Origin: Anaerolineales bacterium
GTDB lineage: Bacteria; Chloroflexota; Anaerolineae; Anaerolineales; UBA11579
Reading direction: 5' to 3'
NCBI GenBank assembly: GCA_025808555.1
Contig: CP075526.1
Location: forward strand, 822,712 to 886,711
DNA: 64,000 bases
Under the pieces are notes generated by a model. That model did not search any database and was not told the DNA's origin. It saw nothing but the letters and a program-made list of their open reading frames with translations. The translations under genes were made by a program, and so were the position numbers. Shown here piece after piece: positions 18,602 to 29,271 of the stretch (position 1 is the stretch's first letter; the number at the start of each line of letters is the position of its first letter).

Positions 18602-19777
18602 ATGCCATTGGATCTTCTCTCTGTCAAGCAGCAGTCCGCCCAAATTGCCGCCAACGCGCCGCAGGAGCAGCAACGCGTGCAGGCCTTGCGCAACAAGGCC
18701 AATGAGTTGCTGGCCGAGCATGCCAACAAGGGCGCCGAACTGCGCGCCAAGGTGGAACTGGCCGCCCAGCTGGATAGCTGGCTGCGGGCCGCCAAGCCCA
18801 CCGACGAGCCACTGACAGCGCAGTTCCCCCTGCCCGCTGCGCCCGGCAGCTTGATGGTCATTGCTGCCGATGGCTCGCAGATCAATCCTGACCGGCACGC
18901 CGCGCTCAACTTCTACCTTGTGAACCTGGGCGCCATCCTGATGCGCACCCACAGCGGGCAGGCGCCTCTACAGCGCGTGCAAAGCGAACTGCACTACGCC
19001 GAATACAGCCCCACCGGCAGCGTGACCCAAGACCAGGTAGGCCTGGAGCGCGATACCAACGAACGCATTTTTCTCGCGTCCCTGGCTGCCGAAAAGCACG
19101 ACCTGCCCGTGCTTGCGCTCACCGATGGCCCATTGGAGCTGTGGGGCAGCCGCACGCAGGACTCGCAGGAGCAACAGAGCTACCTGAGCGCTCTGGAGAA
19201 ATACCTCACCGCGCTGCAAGCCCTGCACGCCACCAAGGCCATAACCGCCGGCTATGTAGATAAACCCCGCGCCGATCTCGTCGTGCGCTCCCTGGAGATC
19301 GCCGCCACGCCGCAAGAGATGCTGGGCGACACCCGCAAGTTGCGTTACCTGCGCGGTGTAACCGACGCCGACCTTTTCGCATTCCTGGCCCCCGGCGAGC
19401 GCTCGGCACTCTTCGCGCACCAGAACCAGCTTTCGGGCCGCTACGAAGGCCCGTTGACGCTGCACTTCTTCTATCTCAATGTGGGTGACGAACGCAGCAG
19501 CAATCTGGCCCGCGTCGAAGTACCCGCCTGGGTGGCGCAGAACCGCGCCATGCTCGATACGCTGCACGCTGCGCTCGTCGAGCAGTGCAAGCTGCTCGGC
19601 TCGCGCCCGTACCCCTACGCGCTACACCGCGCCCATGAGATCGCGGTGGTGAGCCGCGCCGAGAAGGACGAAATCACCAACATGCTGCAGCGCGCCCTGG
19701 AAGCCGAAGGCGTGCACACCGGCGACATGTCGCACAAGCAGGCCCTCAAAGACTTGCCGGGCCGCGGAAGGAACTAG
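18602..19777 (+). CDS. nurA: NurA-family 5'-3' nuclease
   Basis: The protein has 391 residues. The NurA core is recognisable by the metal-binding Asp in MVIAADGSQINPDRHA (Asp90), the second acidic motif LALTDGPLELWG, the AGYVDKPRADLVVR segment and the C-terminal PYALHRAHEIAVVSRAEKDEI. An N-terminal helical extension (1-60) is probably coiled. NurA resects DNA ends together with the hexameric HerA translocase during double-strand break repair in archaea and some bacteria. The downstream gene starts on the base after its stop and herA follows with a 4-base overlap, so the three form one unit. Confidence 0.88.
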   Translation: MPLDLLSVKQQSAQIAANAPQEQQRVQALRNKANELLAEHANKGAELRAKVELAAQLDSWLRAAKPTDEPLTAQFPLPAAPGSLMVIAADGSQINPDRHAALNFYLVNLGAILMRTHSGQAPLQRVQSELHYAEYSPTGSVTQDQVGLERDTNERIFLASLAAEKHDLPVLALTDGPLELWGSRTQDSQEQQSYLSALEKYLTALQALHATKAITAGYVDKPRADLVVRSLEIAATPQEMLGDTRKLRYLRGVTDADLFAFLAPGERSALFAHQNQLSGRYEGPLTLHFFYLNVGDERSSNLARVEVPAWVAQNRAMLDTLHAALVEQCKLLGSRPYPYALHRAHEIAVVSRAEKDEITNMLQRALEAEGVHTGDMSHKQALKDLPGRGRN

Positions 19778-20398
19778 ATGACCGACACCAACTACCCTAT
19801 CGGGCGCCTGCTGCGCTCGGGCATCACCGGCTTTGTGGCCGGCTGCCCCATCGTGGAGCAGGAGCGCCCCAGCTTCGGCGCCCTGGTGCGCGCCCCGCTC
19901 GGGCCTAACGACTCCATATACGGCGTTGTGCATGAGCTCAGCATTCTGGACGATGGCCTGGTGCGCCAGCTGGTGACGCGTGACCAGCCGGTGGACGACA
20001 CCGTGATCGCTGACAACCGCGTCAACCGCACCGTGCCGATGGAGATCAGCGTGCTGGCCGTAGGCCACAGCCACAACGGCGCCATCAGCCATGCGCTGGC
20101 GCCGCGCGCCCCGCTCAGCCTGGACGCCATCCACCAATGCAGCCCGGAGGAGATCGTAACCTTCACCAACCACGGCCGCTTCGGTTACTTGCGCCACCTG
20201 CTGCGTGACACCGAGCTGCCAGTCGGCGAACTGCTGGCCGCCCACGTGCGCCAGGCCGCCGCGGCTAACGCCACCGCCGGGCAACCAGAATGGCGCACCC
20301 GCGCCGCTCAGGAAATCATCGCCCTGTTGCGCGATGACTACGCAATCCTGATGCAAGTGCTGGGGGCATTGTCAGATGTTTTGGAGAACGAGCAATGA
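19778..20398 (+). CDS. HAS-barrel-like accessory protein between nurA and herA
   Basis: The protein has 206 residues. The N-terminal half (IGRLLRSGITGFVAGC ... GALVRAPLGPN ... YGVVHELS) has the small beta-barrel pattern of HAS domains found at the N-terminus of HerA. The C-terminal half is helical and Ala-rich. HerA in this operon has its own N-terminal barrel, so this would be an additional subunit or adaptor. It begins immediately after the nurA stop, with a GGAAGG site inside nurA, and overlaps herA by 4 bases. The HAS assignment is tentative. Confidence 0.65.
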   Translation: MTDTNYPIGRLLRSGITGFVAGCPIVEQERPSFGALVRAPLGPNDSIYGVVHELSILDDGLVRQLVTRDQPVDDTVIADNRVNRTVPMEISVLAVGHSHNGAISHALAPRAPLSLDAIHQCSPEEIVTFTNHGRFGYLRHLLRDTELPVGELLAAHVRQAAAANATAGQPEWRTRAAQEIIALLRDDYAILMQVLGALSDVLENEQ

Positions 20399-22113
20399 GC
20401 GAAGAAATGCAAGGCCGGCAACGCGTCGGCTTTATCGTCGGCGGCAGCCTCAAAACCAACTTACTAGCCCGTCTGCAAGTGTCGGCCCAGGATGTGCAGG
20501 AAGGTGCCTTTGTCGTCATCGAGAGCGGGCGCTGGCTCTTTCACGGGCTGGTGACCGACCTGCTGCTGGGAGCAACTGACCCGCGCTTTGCTGACGAGCA
20601 GAGCGGTGTACGGCTGCCTGCCGAACTGGCGGGTTTGCTACACGGCCAAACCCTCTTCACCAATCTCGAGATCCTGCCTGCCCTGATGATGGAGCGCGGT
20701 CCGGAGCTCGGTACGCCAGAATACGACGAATGGATGAAAGCAATTGAAGCAGGTCTGCGCAAGAAACCGCGCGCCCTGCCCATCAAGACCGTACCAGCCC
20801 ACCAGGCCAGCGTTATGCTCGCCAGTGAAGGCGACATCGCCGAGATCTTCGGCGACCCTGGCGACAAGGACAACTTTGTCATCGGCACCACCCGCGAGCA
20901 GGATCACCCCGTCGCCATCGACTTGCACAAACTGGTTCAGCGCTCCTCCGGCGTGTTCGGGGCTACCGGCACCGGCAAAAGCTTCCTCACTCGCCTGCTG
21001 CTGGCTGGCCTCATCCACCACAACGCCGCTTCGGTGCTGGTGCTGGACATGCACAACGAGTACGGCTTTGACGACACCTCGTCTGACACCAATGAGCGCG
21101 TCACCGGGCTCAAGACCAAGTTCCCTAGCCGCGTTCAGATTGTAGGCCTGGGCGCTGGCACCAACATCCGCGGTCAGAACCCCGATTTCCACCTGGAGAT
21201 CGCCATGAGCGACATCATGCCGCAGGATGTTGAACTGCTCACCCGCGAGCTCAACCTCAAGGAAACCACGCCCACTACGCTCGACGCGCTGGTCTCCACC
21301 TTTGGCGCGCGCAACTGGTTCAAGTCCTTCAAAGAGATGAAGGCCAACGCCGTCATCGAGAACGAGGACGGCAAAAAGGTGCCCGCGCCGGAGAGCGTGG
21401 CCGCCTGGGCAGACGAGCGCGGCGTCAATGTGATGGCGGCCGAGGGCCTGCACAGCAAGCTCAGCCGCGTATTCAACCTGCCCTACCTGGTCGAGAAGCC
21501 AGCCATGGACGGCATCGGCGAGGTGATCAAAGCACTGGAGGCGGGCAAGCACGTTGTCCTCTCCTTCGGCAAGCACGAGAGCGACCTGGATTATTTGCTG
21601 GTCAGCAACCTGCTCACCCGTCGCATCCGTGAGCGCTGGGAGACAACCACCAACGAGTTCCGCACCACCGGCCAGCACGAGCCGCGTCCGCTGGTCATCG
21701 CCGTGGAAGAGGCCCACAAACTGCTTAACCGCGAGATGGCCGCCCAAACCAGCTTCAGCACCATTGCCCGCGAGCTGCGCAAGTACTACGTCACCCTGCT
21801 GATCATTGACCAGCGTCCCAGCCAGATCTACGACGAGGTCATGTCGCAGTTAGGCACGCGCATCAGCGGATGGCTGGGCGACGATGACGATATCCGTGCC
21901 GTGCTCAGTGGCCTGGCCGGCCGTGAGGCCCTGCGCGGCATGCTGGCCCGCCTGCAGCCCAAAGAAGAGGTCTTGCTATTGGGTTGGGGCGTGCCGATGC
22001 CGTTACCTGTACGCTCTCGGCGCTACGATGATATATTCTGGCAAGAGCTGCTGGGCGATAAAGCCGCCAGCAGTAAAAGCGAGAAGCAGATCAAGAAAGA
22101 GCTTGGGTTTTGA
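20395..22113 (+). CDS. herA: HerA-family DNA translocase/helicase
   Basis: The protein has 572 residues, the family's usual size. It has an N-terminal HAS-barrel-like region (about 10-60), then the RecA-like ATPase with Walker A GATGTGKS (189-196), VLVLDMHNEYGF after it and the Walker B VIAVEEAHKLL with adjacent Glu. DQRPSQIYDEVMSQLGTRIS near 480 is the typical HerA/FtsK-like sensor and arginine-finger region. HerA hexamers encircle DNA and drive NurA nuclease. The operon context (nurA, HAS-like gene, herA) supports DNA end resection. Defence roles of HerA systems with other effectors are known, but no such effector adjoins here. Confidence 0.92.
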   Translation: MSEEMQGRQRVGFIVGGSLKTNLLARLQVSAQDVQEGAFVVIESGRWLFHGLVTDLLLGATDPRFADEQSGVRLPAELAGLLHGQTLFTNLEILPALMMERGPELGTPEYDEWMKAIEAGLRKKPRALPIKTVPAHQASVMLASEGDIAEIFGDPGDKDNFVIGTTREQDHPVAIDLHKLVQRSSGVFGATGTGKSFLTRLLLAGLIHHNAASVLVLDMHNEYGFDDTSSDTNERVTGLKTKFPSRVQIVGLGAGTNIRGQNPDFHLEIAMSDIMPQDVELLTRELNLKETTPTTLDALVSTFGARNWFKSFKEMKANAVIENEDGKKVPAPESVAAWADERGVNVMAAEGLHSKLSRVFNLPYLVEKPAMDGIGEVIKALEAGKHVVLSFGKHESDLDYLLVSNLLTRRIRERWETTTNEFRTTGQHEPRPLVIAVEEAHKLLNREMAAQTSFSTIARELRKYYVTLLIIDQRPSQIYDEVMSQLGTRISGWLGDDDDIRAVLSGLAGREALRGMLARLQPKEEVLLLGWGVPMPLPVRSRRYDDIFWQELLGDKAASSKSEKQIKKELGF

Positions 22114-23372: not shown

Positions 23373-24509
23373 ATGCGGCTTTCAGAAACGAGCGGGCAAG
23401 TAAAGGCATTACTTAAGGCGGGCCAACGGCAGCAAGCCCTGCTTTTGCTTTCCCAAACTCTTAAAACCGACCCGAGCTATACCGAAGGGTGGTGGCTGCT
23501 CAGCTTTGCCATTGACGACCGTGGCAAACAGATCTACGCCCTCAAACGCGTACTCCAGCTCAGCCCCAACAACCCCAAAGTACTCGAGCGCCTCGCCGCC
23601 CTCTCGCCGCAAGAGGCGCGCCAACAGCAGCCTGCGCTGGTGCGCCAGATGCCGGCCCGCAGCGCAGTCACCTCCACCCGCGAAGGGCGCACCTGGGCTG
23701 GCGCCATCGGTGCCGGGCTGCTGGCCACGCTGGCCGTGGCCGGCGGGCTCACTCTGGCCCTGCGCGCCACGCCCGCCCGCGCCAGCCAGCCCGAGCCTAC
23801 TGCACCTGTGCTGGCGGCCTCCCTCCCCACCAGCACAGCCGTACCAAGCAGCCCTTCCGCCGTCCCGCCCACAACCACCAGTCAGCCCAGCGCGCCGGCA
23901 GCCACGGCAACCGCCAGTCCAGCACCAACCGAAAAGCTCCAGCCGCAGCCAGTTAGCGAAGAGGAAGAGGTTAGCGTAACCCTGATTACCGATTCCGACA
24001 CCAGCGCCCTGCCCGCCTTTGACCAGTTCGTGCAAAGCCTTGCCAACGGCAACGGCAACCAGCCAGTGGGCGTCTATGTCCAAGGCCAGTTCCAGTACCC
24101 GGTGGTGCAGCAGCCCAGCAGCGATCCCGCCTGGGTCACCAGCAACTTCGGTGAGGTGACCAATTTCCGCATCGTGCGCCAACACACCGGCAACGAGGGC
24201 CTGATCGCCCACAATTACCTGGCCGGCGGCAGCTTCTATAACCTGCAACCCGGTGATATCGCCGAGCTCGTCATGGGTGACGGTACCGTGGTGGAGTTTG
24301 AGATCTACGAGATCCATTCCTTCCAGGCGCTGAGCCCAAACAGCGCGCTGAGCGACTTCCTCAACCTGGATACGGGTGAAAAACTGACCGCTTCCGATCT
24401 CTTCTACCGCGTCTACGGCGGCAATATGACCTTGACCTTTCAAACCTGCATCAACCGCGACAACATTTCCACCTGGGGTCGCACCTTCATCATCGGAGCA
24501 GAGCTGTAA
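23373..24509 (+). CDS. Membrane-anchored TPR plus sortase-like domain protein
   Basis: The protein has 378 residues. The N-terminus (1-80) has two TPR-like repeats (AGQRQQALLLLSQTLKTDP, then KQIYALKRVLQLSPNNPKV). A membrane helix (about 109-128), a Ser/Thr/Pro linker (138-195) and an extracellular domain (about 215-378) follow. That domain is homologous to the one in the 868-1719 protein. Its sortase-like residues are His280 in IAHNYLAGG, Cys359 in LTFQTCINR and Arg370 in GRTFIIG. The TPR part would be cytoplasmic, so the protein may link an inner partner to an outer transpeptidase-like domain. It overlaps the next gene (TAATG), giving a three-gene operon with Wzz-like and BcsB-like proteins. 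Confidence 0.65.
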   Translation: MRLSETSGQVKALLKAGQRQQALLLLSQTLKTDPSYTEGWWLLSFAIDDRGKQIYALKRVLQLSPNNPKVLERLAALSPQEARQQQPALVRQMPARSAVTSTREGRTWAGAIGAGLLATLAVAGGLTLALRATPARASQPEPTAPVLAASLPTSTAVPSSPSAVPPTTTSQPSAPAATATASPAPTEKLQPQPVSEEEEVSVTLITDSDTSALPAFDQFVQSLANGNGNQPVGVYVQGQFQYPVVQQPSSDPAWVTSNFGEVTNFRIVRQHTGNEGLIAHNYLAGGSFYNLQPGDIAELVMGDGTVVEFEIYEIHSFQALSPNSALSDFLNLDTGEKLTASDLFYRVYGGNMTLTFQTCINRDNISTWGRTFIIGAEL

Positions 24510-25630
24510 TGGTTCGCCACTACTTTGAACTCGTGCAAAGCAATTGGCGCTGGGTCGCTTTGTTCATCCTCGGCGCCTGCATCCTTTCGGTGGCCATCTC
24601 GCTCAGCGCCACGCCCATCTATCGCGCCACCACTTCGTTCGTCATCTTCCCCAATGAGAAGCTGACCAGCAGCCGAGATGTGGTCTCAAGCCTTGATACG
24701 CTGGAAAAGCGCACCGTCATCACCACCTATTCCGAGATCGTGGCCAGCGAGCGCGTCTACCAGAATACGCAGCAAAGCATGCCTTCCGCCGGCGAAGATT
24801 TTGCGCACTACCAGCGCAGCGTGGTAGTGCCGCCCGAATCCAACATCTTCTATCTCAACGTAGACGGGCCTCACCCGGCCTTCGCCGCCGCGCTGGGCAA
24901 TCAAGTCGGCGCGCAGGGCATTGCCACCATCAAGGGCATCTACCAGGTCTTCGACATTGCCGTGCTGGACGAGGCCCACGCCCCCACCACCCCCATCAGC
25001 CCGCAGCCGCTGCGCTCGCTGCTGCTGTTCGCGCTCGGCGGCCTGCTGCTGGGCATCTTCGTCGTGCTCGTGCGCTACCAGATCAACCGGCCCATCGAGG
25101 CCATCCGCGACCGTCTGAACCGTGACCCTGAATCCGGTGCTTACAAGCGCGCTCACTTCAGCAACCTGGTCGAGCGCCGCATGGCCGAGCGGCCCGACGC
25201 GCCGCTTTCGCTGGCCCTCATCGAACTCGAGAGCCTCAAGACCTTCGCTAACTCGCTGCCCAACGTGGTGCTGAGCGATTTCCTCACCCACACGGTGGAG
25301 ATCCTCAATAAGCAGCTGCGCGGCAATGATGCCGTCGGCCGCTGGAACGAGACCGCCTTTGCCATCATGCTGCCGGATACACCCCCACAGCCCGCAGCCC
25401 GCACTCTCTTGCGCATCCGCCAGGGCCTCTTGCAACCCATGGAGGAGAGCTCCGGGCTGTACAAGGTTTCGCTCAAACCCAGCGTCGGCCTCACCGCCTG
25501 GGAACACGACGAAACCCTCACGCAACTCATCGAGAATGTGGAATTTGCGCTGGAGAAAGCCAATCAGGCTGCCGAGCGTATCTATATCTTCCCAATTGAC
25601 CTGGGGCAGCCCAAAAATGGCAACAGCTAA
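24509..25630 (+). CDS. Wzz-like chain-length protein fused to a degenerate GGDEF domain
   Basis: The protein has 373 residues. Helix 1 (about 15-33), an extracytoplasmic region of about 130 residues and helix 2 (about 168-189) form the layout of polysaccharide co-polymerases (Wzz domain). The Pro-rich segment PISPQPLRS before helix 2 is typical. The cytoplasmic part (about 200-373) aligns with GGDEF cyclases (DPESGAYKRAHF at the start, IMLPDT later), but the active loop is GRWNETAF (277-284) instead of RYGGDEF. It is therefore unlikely to make cyclic di-GMP and may sense or scaffold. Start and end overlap both neighbours. Confidence 0.7.
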   Translation: MVRHYFELVQSNWRWVALFILGACILSVAISLSATPIYRATTSFVIFPNEKLTSSRDVVSSLDTLEKRTVITTYSEIVASERVYQNTQQSMPSAGEDFAHYQRSVVVPPESNIFYLNVDGPHPAFAAALGNQVGAQGIATIKGIYQVFDIAVLDEAHAPTTPISPQPLRSLLLFALGGLLLGIFVVLVRYQINRPIEAIRDRLNRDPESGAYKRAHFSNLVERRMAERPDAPLSLALIELESLKTFANSLPNVVLSDFLTHTVEILNKQLRGNDAVGRWNETAFAIMLPDTPPQPAARTLLRIRQGLLQPMEESSGLYKVSLKPSVGLTAWEHDETLTQLIENVEFALEKANQAAERIYIFPIDLGQPKNGNS

Positions 25631-27782
25631 ACGCTTCGCACTCCTCCTGTTGGCCCTGAGCCTGCTGGCCAGCATTCCCGCCGCGCCCGCCCTGCAGACC
25701 GGCACACAAGTCAGCGAGATCACGCTGACCCAACTGGGCGCAGAGCCCTTTGCCGCCCTGCAAGGGCCGTACAGCAGCCTCGCCCTCACCTTCACCACCC
25801 CGCCCAACTGGGATCCGCAGACCGGCAGCACCCTCACGCTGGATCTGCAGAGTTTCTTCTCCAGCTTTGTGCCTGCCCAGGGGGAAGTAGCCCAGCAGAA
25901 CTTGGTCGCCGGGCACATCTCCGTCCGGCTCGATGGCACAGTGCTGCACCGCAGCGTGCTGAGCACCAATGGCGAACAGCAGCTCAGCCTGGCCTTGGAA
26001 CCAGCCCTGCTGGCCGCCGGGCCGCAGCACACCCTCAATATAGATTGGGATGCCTCGGCCTCGTGCCAGTTGAATCTCTCCAGCACCGTCCTGTTGCAGC
26101 CCAGCTCCATGCTCAGCCTCAGCTACGCCGAAACCGCCGTGGAGCCTGCGCTGGCCCAGCTGCCCTATCCCTTCTTCTCCGCTGATGCGCTGCAGCACCC
26201 CGGCACGCTAATCGTGCTGCCGCCCAATCCCACTCAGGGCCAGGTGGCGGCGGCCCTCACCGTGGCGGCCGCCTTGGGCCGCTTCGCGCCCCAGCAGCCT
26301 ATTGAGCTGGCTATCGAATCCGCCCTCAACGAAGACAACCTGGCCGACAAGCATCTGGTGTATGTCGGCCAACTGGAGCTGTTCAGAGATCTGCAAAGCC
26401 CCACCCTGCCGCACAATCAGGATGCCACTCTGCGCCAGCCCGCCGCCAACCGCGCCGGCCTGGGCTTCATCGAGGTGGCCCGCTCGCCCTGGAACATCCA
26501 GCGCGCCATCCTGGTAGTGAGCGGCGGCAGCGAGGCGGCAGTACAGCGCGCCGCCCTGGCGGTAGGCAGCCCGCTGGTACTCAACGACCGCGGCAACATT
26601 GCCTACGTGCCGCAGGATACCAAGCCCAGCCTGCAGCCCACGGATACGCTGGCCAGCAATTTCTCGCAGCTGGGCCAGACCGATTTCACCTTCACCCGCT
26701 TTGGCCGCTCCGAATTGCGCGTGCCTTTCTATATCTCACCAGACCGCGCTGTGAGTGATGCAGCCTTTCTGGATCTGCGCTTTGCCCACTCCCAACTGCT
26801 CGACTATTTGCGCTCCAGCGTTACCGTGCAGGTCAACGGCCAGGCCATCAGCACCACCCGCCTGGTGGATCAAACCGCCGCACGCCACAGCGAAGTCACC
26901 CTGCTGCCCGCTTCGATCCTGAAGCCCGGCATGAACGAGCTGCTCATCTCTGCCGATGTGGTGCCGCTGGACCTATGCGCCAACCCTGCCGAGGGCGACC
27001 ACTGGCTCACCATCTATGCCGACTCGCTCATCAGCATCCCCACTTCCAACGATCCGCTGGTGCGCACAGAACTGACCCTGGGCGAATTCCCGCTACCCTT
27101 CCTGCACAACAGCATGCAGGGCACCGCCCTGCTGCTGCCCGATAACGACCCGCAGGCCTGGGCCAACGCCGCGCGCCTGTTGCGCGGCCTAGCTGCCAGC
27201 TACCAGGCCTGGCCGCTGCTGCCCAGCGTACAGATCGGCTCCAGCAGCGCCGCCTTTGCCAGCGCTGGCGCCGACAACATCATCATTCTGGGCAATTTTG
27301 ATGATTTCCTGTCTGATCTCGAAATGCAGACTCTCTTCGCCGTGCAGCGTGCTGGCGATAGTGGCGAGGTTGCCCTCAGCAACGGGAGCCGCCTGGGCTA
27401 TTCACCCAGCGTGCCGCTGGCCATCGCCTCACTGAACCGCCTGCCCAATGGCGATACCGCCTCGCTGGCACTGTTGGGCAACACGCCCGCCAGCCTGCAA
27501 GGCGTGGTGGAAGCGCTCACCGCGCCCAGCTTCCCCAACCGCAGCAACGGCGTTCTGCTGATGGCGCAGCAGGGCGCAACCGCCATCCAGGACACGCGGC
27601 CGGCCGCCTCCGGCCAGCCGCAAGCGACTGCCGCCGCCGAGCTGGCGCCCAGCGCCAGCGGCCCCGTCTCCACCGGCAAAGGAGTCTGGCTCTGGCCGCT
27701 GCTGGCACTCATGCTGGTCGCCTTCGGGCTCATCATCTGGGAGCAGATGTCGGGGTGGGTCAAGCGCAAGCGCAGCCACTAA
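25617..27782 (+). CDS. BcsB-like cellulose synthase accessory protein
   Basis: The protein has 721 residues from the ATG at 25617, which lies inside the end of the upstream gene. The longer open frame before it is out-of-frame coding of that gene. A signal peptide (about 1-24) is followed by alternating carbohydrate-binding-like and flavodoxin-like segments, with repeats such as FTFTRFGRSELRVPFYISPD, VNGQAISTTRL and GMNELLISADVVPLDLC. A single C-terminal helix (about 692-713) precedes a basic tail. BcsB guides the nascent glucan outside the membrane and normally partners BcsA. No glycosyltransferase is encoded nearby, so the polymer and its synthase are unknown. Confidence 0.72.
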   Translation: MATAKRFALLLLALSLLASIPAAPALQTGTQVSEITLTQLGAEPFAALQGPYSSLALTFTTPPNWDPQTGSTLTLDLQSFFSSFVPAQGEVAQQNLVAGHISVRLDGTVLHRSVLSTNGEQQLSLALEPALLAAGPQHTLNIDWDASASCQLNLSSTVLLQPSSMLSLSYAETAVEPALAQLPYPFFSADALQHPGTLIVLPPNPTQGQVAAALTVAAALGRFAPQQPIELAIESALNEDNLADKHLVYVGQLELFRDLQSPTLPHNQDATLRQPAANRAGLGFIEVARSPWNIQRAILVVSGGSEAAVQRAALAVGSPLVLNDRGNIAYVPQDTKPSLQPTDTLASNFSQLGQTDFTFTRFGRSELRVPFYISPDRAVSDAAFLDLRFAHSQLLDYLRSSVTVQVNGQAISTTRLVDQTAARHSEVTLLPASILKPGMNELLISADVVPLDLCANPAEGDHWLTIYADSLISIPTSNDPLVRTELTLGEFPLPFLHNSMQGTALLLPDNDPQAWANAARLLRGLAASYQAWPLLPSVQIGSSSAAFASAGADNIIILGNFDDFLSDLEMQTLFAVQRAGDSGEVALSNGSRLGYSPSVPLAIASLNRLPNGDTASLALLGNTPASLQGVVEALTAPSFPNRSNGVLLMAQQGATAIQDTRPAASGQPQATAAAELAPSASGPVSTGKGVWLWPLLALMLVAFGLIIWEQMSGWVKRKRSH

Positions 27783-28041: not shown

Positions 28042-29271
28042 ATGGAACTCAAAGGAAAAGGCTACTACCTCTGGCAAATAAAACGGGCTTTTGAAGGCAA
28101 CCCCGGCAAAATTGCCGATGCTGCTAAGCAAGCCGGCCTCAGTCACGTACTAATTAAAGTGGCTGACGGCGTCTACAACTACAACATCACCAACGGCGTG
28201 GATATGGTTCCCGGCCTGGTGGCGGCGTTGCGCTCACGCGGCATCTCCCCCTGGGGTTGGCAGTATATCTACGGCGTCAACGCCGTCAATGAGGCCAAGC
28301 GCGCCATCACCCGCGTCAAGCAGCTCGGCCTGGATGGTTTTGTGGTGAACGCTGAGAAGGAATTCAAGGCGACCAACATGGCCAGTACGGCGAAAGCCTA
28401 CATGCAGGAATTGCGTGGCGGCCTGCCCAAGTTCCCCATTGCGCTCAGCACCTACCGCTACCCCAAGCTGCACGCACCTTTCCCGTTCGCCGCCTTCCTG
28501 GAATTTTGCGACATCAACATGCCGCAGGTCTACTGGGTCGGCTCCAGCAATCCGGGCCAGCAGCTCAAGCGCACCATTGACGAATACAAGGCCCTCTCGC
28601 CCGTACTGCCCGTCATCCCCACCGGGGCCGCCTACGGCCAGGGTAGCTGGTCGCCCACCGCAAGCCAGGTCATCGAATTCCTGCAGACCGCTCGCACCAT
28701 CGGCCTCAACGCGGCCAACTTCTGGGAATGGCAGACCTCTTACGTAAAGACTGACCTGTGGAGCGCGATCAGCCATTTCGACTGGGCCGCACCGCCTGCC
28801 CAGGCGCCGGCGCCCCCGCCCACGCCTCCGGTGCAGAACCCGCAACCCAACCCGCCCACCACGCCGCCTGCTGCCCCCACGCCCACGCGTGACCCGCGTG
28901 TGGCCCAGGCGCTGGAGATCGGCAACAAGCTCATCGCCGCCCTCAACTCAGGCGTAGCGAACAGCGTAGTTTTCCTCTACCAGACCGAAGGCCGCCTGGT
29001 ATGCAACGGCCAGGGCCGCACCGGCTCCCGCGAACTGTACAGCTGGTACTCCGGCCTGCTGCGTGAGACCTTCCCACCCAAGACCACCTTCCGCCTGCTG
29101 GATGCTGGTGTACAGGCTGACTTCCTTAAGCTGGTGTGGAGCGCAACCCTGCCCAGCGGCAACACCGCCCGCGGCACGGACCTGATCCGTATGGACAATA
29201 CCGGCAAGCTAATCGCCATGCACCACGCCGCCTTCAGCATGTCCAAATCCGCCGAACGCGCCCTAGCCTAG
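28042..29271 (+). CDS. TIM-barrel glycosidase-like protein with C-terminal NTF2-like domain
   Basis: The protein has 409 residues, without signal peptide. Residues 1-245 read as a (beta/alpha)8 barrel: GKGYYLWQIKRAFEGNPGKI, HVLIKVADGVYNYN, PWGWQYIYGVNAVNEAKRAI, GFVVNAEKEFKA, CDINMPQVYWVG and AANFWEWQTSY are successive strand ends with the acidic and aromatic residues typical of glycoside hydrolases. A Pro-rich linker (about 250-285) joins a domain of about 115 residues that looks NTF2/SnoaL-like. Substrate and activity are unknown. The absence of an export signal is odd for a glycan hydrolase. Confidence 0.5.
   Translation: MELKGKGYYLWQIKRAFEGNPGKIADAAKQAGLSHVLIKVADGVYNYNITNGVDMVPGLVAALRSRGISPWGWQYIYGVNAVNEAKRAITRVKQLGLDGFVVNAEKEFKATNMASTAKAYMQELRGGLPKFPIALSTYRYPKLHAPFPFAAFLEFCDINMPQVYWVGSSNPGQQLKRTIDEYKALSPVLPVIPTGAAYGQGSWSPTASQVIEFLQTARTIGLNAANFWEWQTSYVKTDLWSAISHFDWAAPPAQAPAPPPTPPVQNPQPNPPTTPPAAPTPTRDPRVAQALEIGNKLIAALNSGVANSVVFLYQTEGRLVCNGQGRTGSRELYSWYSGLLRETFPPKTTFRLLDAGVQADFLKLVWSATLPSGNTARGTDLIRMDNTGKLIAMHHAAFSMSKSAERALA

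Follow-up and report, generated by a model that had tools for sequence, protein, structure and literature searches.

A putative c-di-GMP-gated envelope module that joins a sortase to the Wzz-GGDEF and BcsB proteins of Chloroflexota exopolysaccharide loci

Three overlapping genes on the forward strand of a 64,000-nucleotide stretch of a Chloroflexota genome (Anaerolineales bacterium, contig CP075526.1; hereafter the window) encode, in order, a TPR-TM-sortase protein (23373..24509; 378 aa), a Wzz-GGDEF fusion (24509..25630; 373 aa) and a BcsB-like protein (25617..27782; 721 aa). The mutual overlap described in the original prediction is confirmed, with 1 nt shared by the first and second genes and 14 nt by the second and third. 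A mechanical list of open reading frames starts the third gene at 25326, though the credible start is the ATG at 25617. The domains first proposed for the trio (TPR/sortase, Wzz and BcsB) are likewise borne out by scores against Pfam and NCBIfam family models. A promoter and terminator scan yielded matches no more frequent than chance.

The first protein consists of an N-terminal TPR domain (TPR_14; about 23373-23648, forward strand), a transmembrane helix (about 23679-23765), a low-complexity linker of Pro, Ser and Thr reaching to about 24017, and a sortase domain (24018-24506). It scores 190.8 bits against NCBIfam NF053836 (sortase_YLP), above the curated cut-off of 125, and is thereby assigned to this family of putative sortases; the Pfam sortase model PF04203 does not reach it. 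Its AlphaFold model contains a confident C-terminal barrel, for which all top Foldseek matches among solved structures are sortases (SrtC1: Z 12.6, rmsd 2.5 over 118 residues), and an N-terminal part resembling TPR structures. Catalytic His280 (24210-24212) and Cys359 (24447-24449) are invariant in 31 aligned sequences, and catalytic Arg370 (24480-24482) is found in the WGR members of the alignment. The protein therefore resembles NF053836 in family score, sortase fold and His/Cys/Arg residues, but differs in carrying a TPR domain ahead of the transmembrane helix and in its linkage to Wzz-GGDEF and BcsB.

Two further sortases adjoin each other elsewhere in the window, a sortase_YLP protein without TPR (868-1719) and a PF04203 sortase (1883-2629), making three within 24 kb. 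An [ILA]PxTG-like motif is present between the signal peptide or transmembrane helix and the sortase domain in 16 of 34 sortase_YLP proteins (L001-L030 and the window protein at 868-1719, among others), against 1.1 expected from shuffled sequences, and it may represent a self-processing or substrate-mimic site. The trio sortases of two genomes (G007 and G008) carry LPATG at this position, whereas it is absent from the trio sortase of the window. In sortase_YLP members scoring below the cut-off (L023-L028), Leu, Val or Ile replaces the catalytic Arg (WG[LVI] rather than WGR), and these proteins are possibly inactive sortases.

In the second protein, the second transmembrane helix of a Wzz domain leads into a fused GGDEF domain that is degenerate and cytoplasmic. 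The Pfam Wzz model matches at 30.7 bits (threshold 25.5), identifying it as a Wzz co-polymerase, and the GGDEF model at 48.7 bits. Its GGDEF signature is replaced by WNETAF (W279-F284; 25343..25360). Immediately upstream of this loop lies RGND (Arg271-Asp274; 25319..25330), an I-site with the c-di-GMP-binding motif RxxD, placed as in PleD-type cyclases. Both features recur beyond the window: 13 homologues from a whole-protein search all share an unchanged LRGND..GR stretch and none has a GGDEF loop, and no GG[DE]EF occurs in any of 72 relatives with a readable loop. Additional loci (76 in total) were retrieved from a genome collection with two search patterns; because one pattern contained the I-site and thus biased the set, conservation was counted on the 44 loci carrying the independent Wzz-domain pattern. 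Among these and the window sequence (45 sequences), R271 is conserved at 98% and D274 at 100%, compared with 49, 29, 47 and 24% for loop positions 280-283. The original prediction was right that the NETAF loop is dead for catalysis; the loop is degenerate in all 72 relatives. With the active site lost and the I-site intact, however, the domain is most likely an I-site c-di-GMP receptor of the PssE/YdaK type and not simply inactive. Intact GGDEF proteins that carry I-sites are encoded in the host genome, as is an EAL protein; one other trio genome (G002) gives no EAL match.

Receptors of this type have been characterized in two exopolysaccharide systems, though neither reproduces the trio. In the pssA-E operon of Listeria monocytogenes, PssE has measured c-di-GMP binding and is required for exopolysaccharide (PMC4125290). 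PssD and PssE resemble the trio in pairing BcsB with a membrane protein that has a degenerate GGDEF and an intact RxxD I-site, but no fusion of PssE to Wzz is described, the system uses the GT2 synthase PssC, and no sortase is reported (PMC4125290). Bacillus subtilis YdaK is likewise a degenerate-GGDEF receptor in which the I-site arginine is needed, encoded in a putative exopolysaccharide operon (ydaJKLMN); in contrast to the trio, YdaK has four transmembrane helices, and YdaM and YdaN are putative parts of an exopolysaccharide synthase rather than Wzx/Wzy (PMC7064775). The Pfam BcsB model also finds a match in B. subtilis.

The third protein comprises a signal sequence, a two-lobed ectodomain and a C-terminal transmembrane anchor (about 27690-27752), and matches the Pfam BcsB model at 113 bits. 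Almost the whole of its predicted structure aligns with E. coli BcsB as found in the hexameric crown (E 9e-34; TM-score 0.70 by target), which argues against the other fold that the original prediction had allowed for. Processive synthases such as BcsA are the known partners of BcsB. Unlike the Bcs complex, which its fold recalls, the trio has no BcsA, as originally claimed: no glycosyltransferase family 2 match lies within the window, and an unlinked synthase is not seen either, no multi-TM QxxRW protein being present near BcsB or among the GT2 frames examined in the genome. The host genome encodes one BcsB and one Wzz, and in all trio genomes the trio copies are the sole representatives of each. 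The C-terminus of BcsB (GPVSTG..WLWP..RKR) was considered as a sortase substrate and rejected, as it aligns with the ordinary ..WLxP transmembrane anchors of BcsB proteins from sortase-free loci and STG is absent in G002 and G019. In one genome (G026; L094 2381-6595), a BcsB domain is fused to a PF07995 glucose/sorbosone dehydrogenase-like domain in a 1404-aa open reading frame.

Distant relatives place the fusion and BcsB in a recognizable polysaccharide locus, with the order PF02397 initiating sugar transferase (PGT), GT4, Wzz-GGDEF, Wzy (PF04932), Wzx (PF13440), further glycosyltransferases and BcsB. Two isolates, Levilinea saccharolytica and Herpetosiphon aurantiacus, also have the Wzz-GGDEF exopolysaccharide cluster by Pfam matches. 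Of 76 loci, 58 have BcsB within 10 kb of Wzz-GGDEF, and among the 18 without a nearby BcsB, 14 end at contig edges; Wzx or Wzy is found in 46 of the 58 BcsB-bearing loci. Among 61 genomes, BcsB occurs in 13/13 with a full-length Wzz-GGDEF and 4/48 others (Fisher p 3.6e-10, a genome-level value for which related genomes are not independent), and the association holds when counted by genus (7/7 and 4/31; p 2.6e-5). At least two of the four BcsB genomes without a full-length fusion have a BcsA-like neighbour. Wzz-GGDEF and BcsB are thus a conserved pair of Wzx/Wzy exopolysaccharide clusters in Anaerolineae and Herpetosiphon. The original prediction had seen a mixture of parts from three envelope processes, a description that does not hold for this pair; its suggested role in exopolysaccharide or envelope glycan is supported by gene linkage in the relatives. 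Two loci labelled as Planctomycetota (L181) and Nitrosomonas (L212) nest within Chloroflexota on the tree and are probably misbinned contigs.

These counts also bear on the possibility that BcsA is encoded at an unlinked site and the trio takes part in an ordinary cellulose-like secretion that depends on this synthase. The classical partnership of BcsB with BcsA would favour this, as would the Listeria operon, in which BcsB is combined with a GT2 synthase (PMC4125290). However, the GT2 frames examined in the host genome yield no multi-TM QxxRW protein, and a possible BcsA-like open reading frame accompanies BcsB in just one of the relatives' 58 loci, where it sits at the position of Wzy, leaving this explanation improbable. 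With nearly all relatives lacking a BcsA-type neighbour, BcsB without BcsA is the rule for the pair rather than an oddity of the window. The trio can be classed as c-di-GMP-receptor-controlled exopolysaccharide export. It shares the Wzz domain with the Wzx/Wzy pathway, to which relatives add linked PGT, Wzx, Wzy and glycosyltransferase genes, but departs from it in the fusion of Wzz to a receptor-like GGDEF, in the adjacent BcsB and, in the window, in lacking linked Wzx and Wzy. The literature searched, which took in few subscription papers, yielded no title or abstract describing a Wzz-GGDEF receptor fusion, or BcsB with Wzx/Wzy, in Chloroflexota.

Sortase, Wzz-GGDEF and BcsB occur together in five genomes of the window's genus and on a single short contig assigned to its family, with the gene order kept in five genomes. 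A tree of Wzz-GGDEF, which did not include G002, has five sortase-linked rows, those of the window, of three congeners and of the family member. They form one clade (support 100/99), within which the placement of the family member calls for long-branch caution. Only the genus members, five in all, were seen to have the TPR-sortase fusion; in the family member the open reading frame ends at the contig edge. The loci with a sortase form a single derived clade, in which a sortase was joined to an existing Wzz-GGDEF/BcsB pair. Within the genus, no Wzx, Wzy or glycosyltransferase gene is linked to the trio. One congener (G001) lacks the trio, its methyltransferase gene and the equivalent of the window gene at 28042 being 94 bp apart; G001 and G002 are roughly equal in their closeness to the window's genome, yet G002 carries the trio at the same site. 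This clean absence and presence indicate that the trio comes or goes as a unit. The gene at 28042 was rejected as a member of the module, given that it stays beside the methyltransferase in the trio-less genome. NurA-domain and HerA-like genes adjoin each other at 18602-22113 and are syntenic in the genus.

All three genes are under purifying selection. Among genus members, dN/dS ranges from 0.00 to 0.11 for Wzz-GGDEF, 0.07 to 0.20 for the sortase and 0.12 to 0.29 for BcsB, as simple NG86 estimates with some dS values near saturation. Such selection disfavours a decaying, functionless remnant of an exopolysaccharide locus, as do the intact catalytic and I-site residues and the gene order held in five genomes; although the locus is devoid of biosynthetic genes and the trio is wholly missing from one congener, decay is very improbable.

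Candidates for an unlinked glycan pathway are present elsewhere in the trio genomes, namely two PGTs together with Wzx-like and Wzy-like genes. As these are found likewise in the trio-less congeners, they do not identify a partner pathway that co-varies with the trio. A Wzy-like gene at 1.217 Mb was discarded as a partner on two grounds: the large glycan cluster around it contains PMT genes, and congeners lacking the trio have Wzy_C matches as well. It is conceivable, though rather unlikely, that the trio was repurposed once the biosynthetic genes had been lost. Wzz-GGDEF and BcsB would then have given up their polymer role and would form a scaffold under c-di-GMP control that holds the sortase in position, so that c-di-GMP switches the display of proteins at the surface. 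The lack of a co-varying glycan pathway is consistent with this, as is the fact that the sortase clade is the only one without linked Wzx, Wzy or glycosyltransferase genes, with flanks that permit judgement at most loci; the sortase triad is also intact, and its gene overlaps that of Wzz-GGDEF. On the other hand, BcsB retains the full fold of a polymer guide, and Wzz-GGDEF remains strongly conserved (dN/dS 0.00-0.11).

The favoured reading, to which we assign a probability of roughly 0.6, is that the trio descends from a Wzx/Wzy exopolysaccharide locus of Chloroflexota and serves in the envelope as a c-di-GMP-gated module acting on an extracellular glycan. In this module, the I-site of the degenerate GGDEF domain would bind c-di-GMP supplied by other GGDEF enzymes of the cell, and the signal would cross the membrane through the transmembrane helices to an extracytoplasmic Wzz ring. 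The ring may set polymer length or assembly jointly with the BcsB crown, which would hold and guide the emerging polymer. Since the window's clade has no linked flippase, polymerase or glycosyltransferases, the glycan pathway served by the module would be encoded at another place in the genome, while the TPR-anchored sortase probably attaches to the envelope a protein that partners the glycan. More broadly, and at slightly less than even odds, Chloroflexota may possess a hybrid form of export in which a BcsB-guided Wzx/Wzy polymer is switched by c-di-GMP acting on Wzz, to which the window's clade couples a sortase.

The surprising element is a BcsB teamed with Wzx/Wzy rather than with BcsA. 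If BcsB is a regular partner of Wzz in Wzx/Wzy clusters throughout the phylum, it can serve a polymerization route other than that of BcsA. The fusion of Wzz to an I-site receptor would provide a direct and testable link from c-di-GMP to chain-length control in the Wzx/Wzy pathway, in a group that includes cultured Herpetosiphon and Levilinea.
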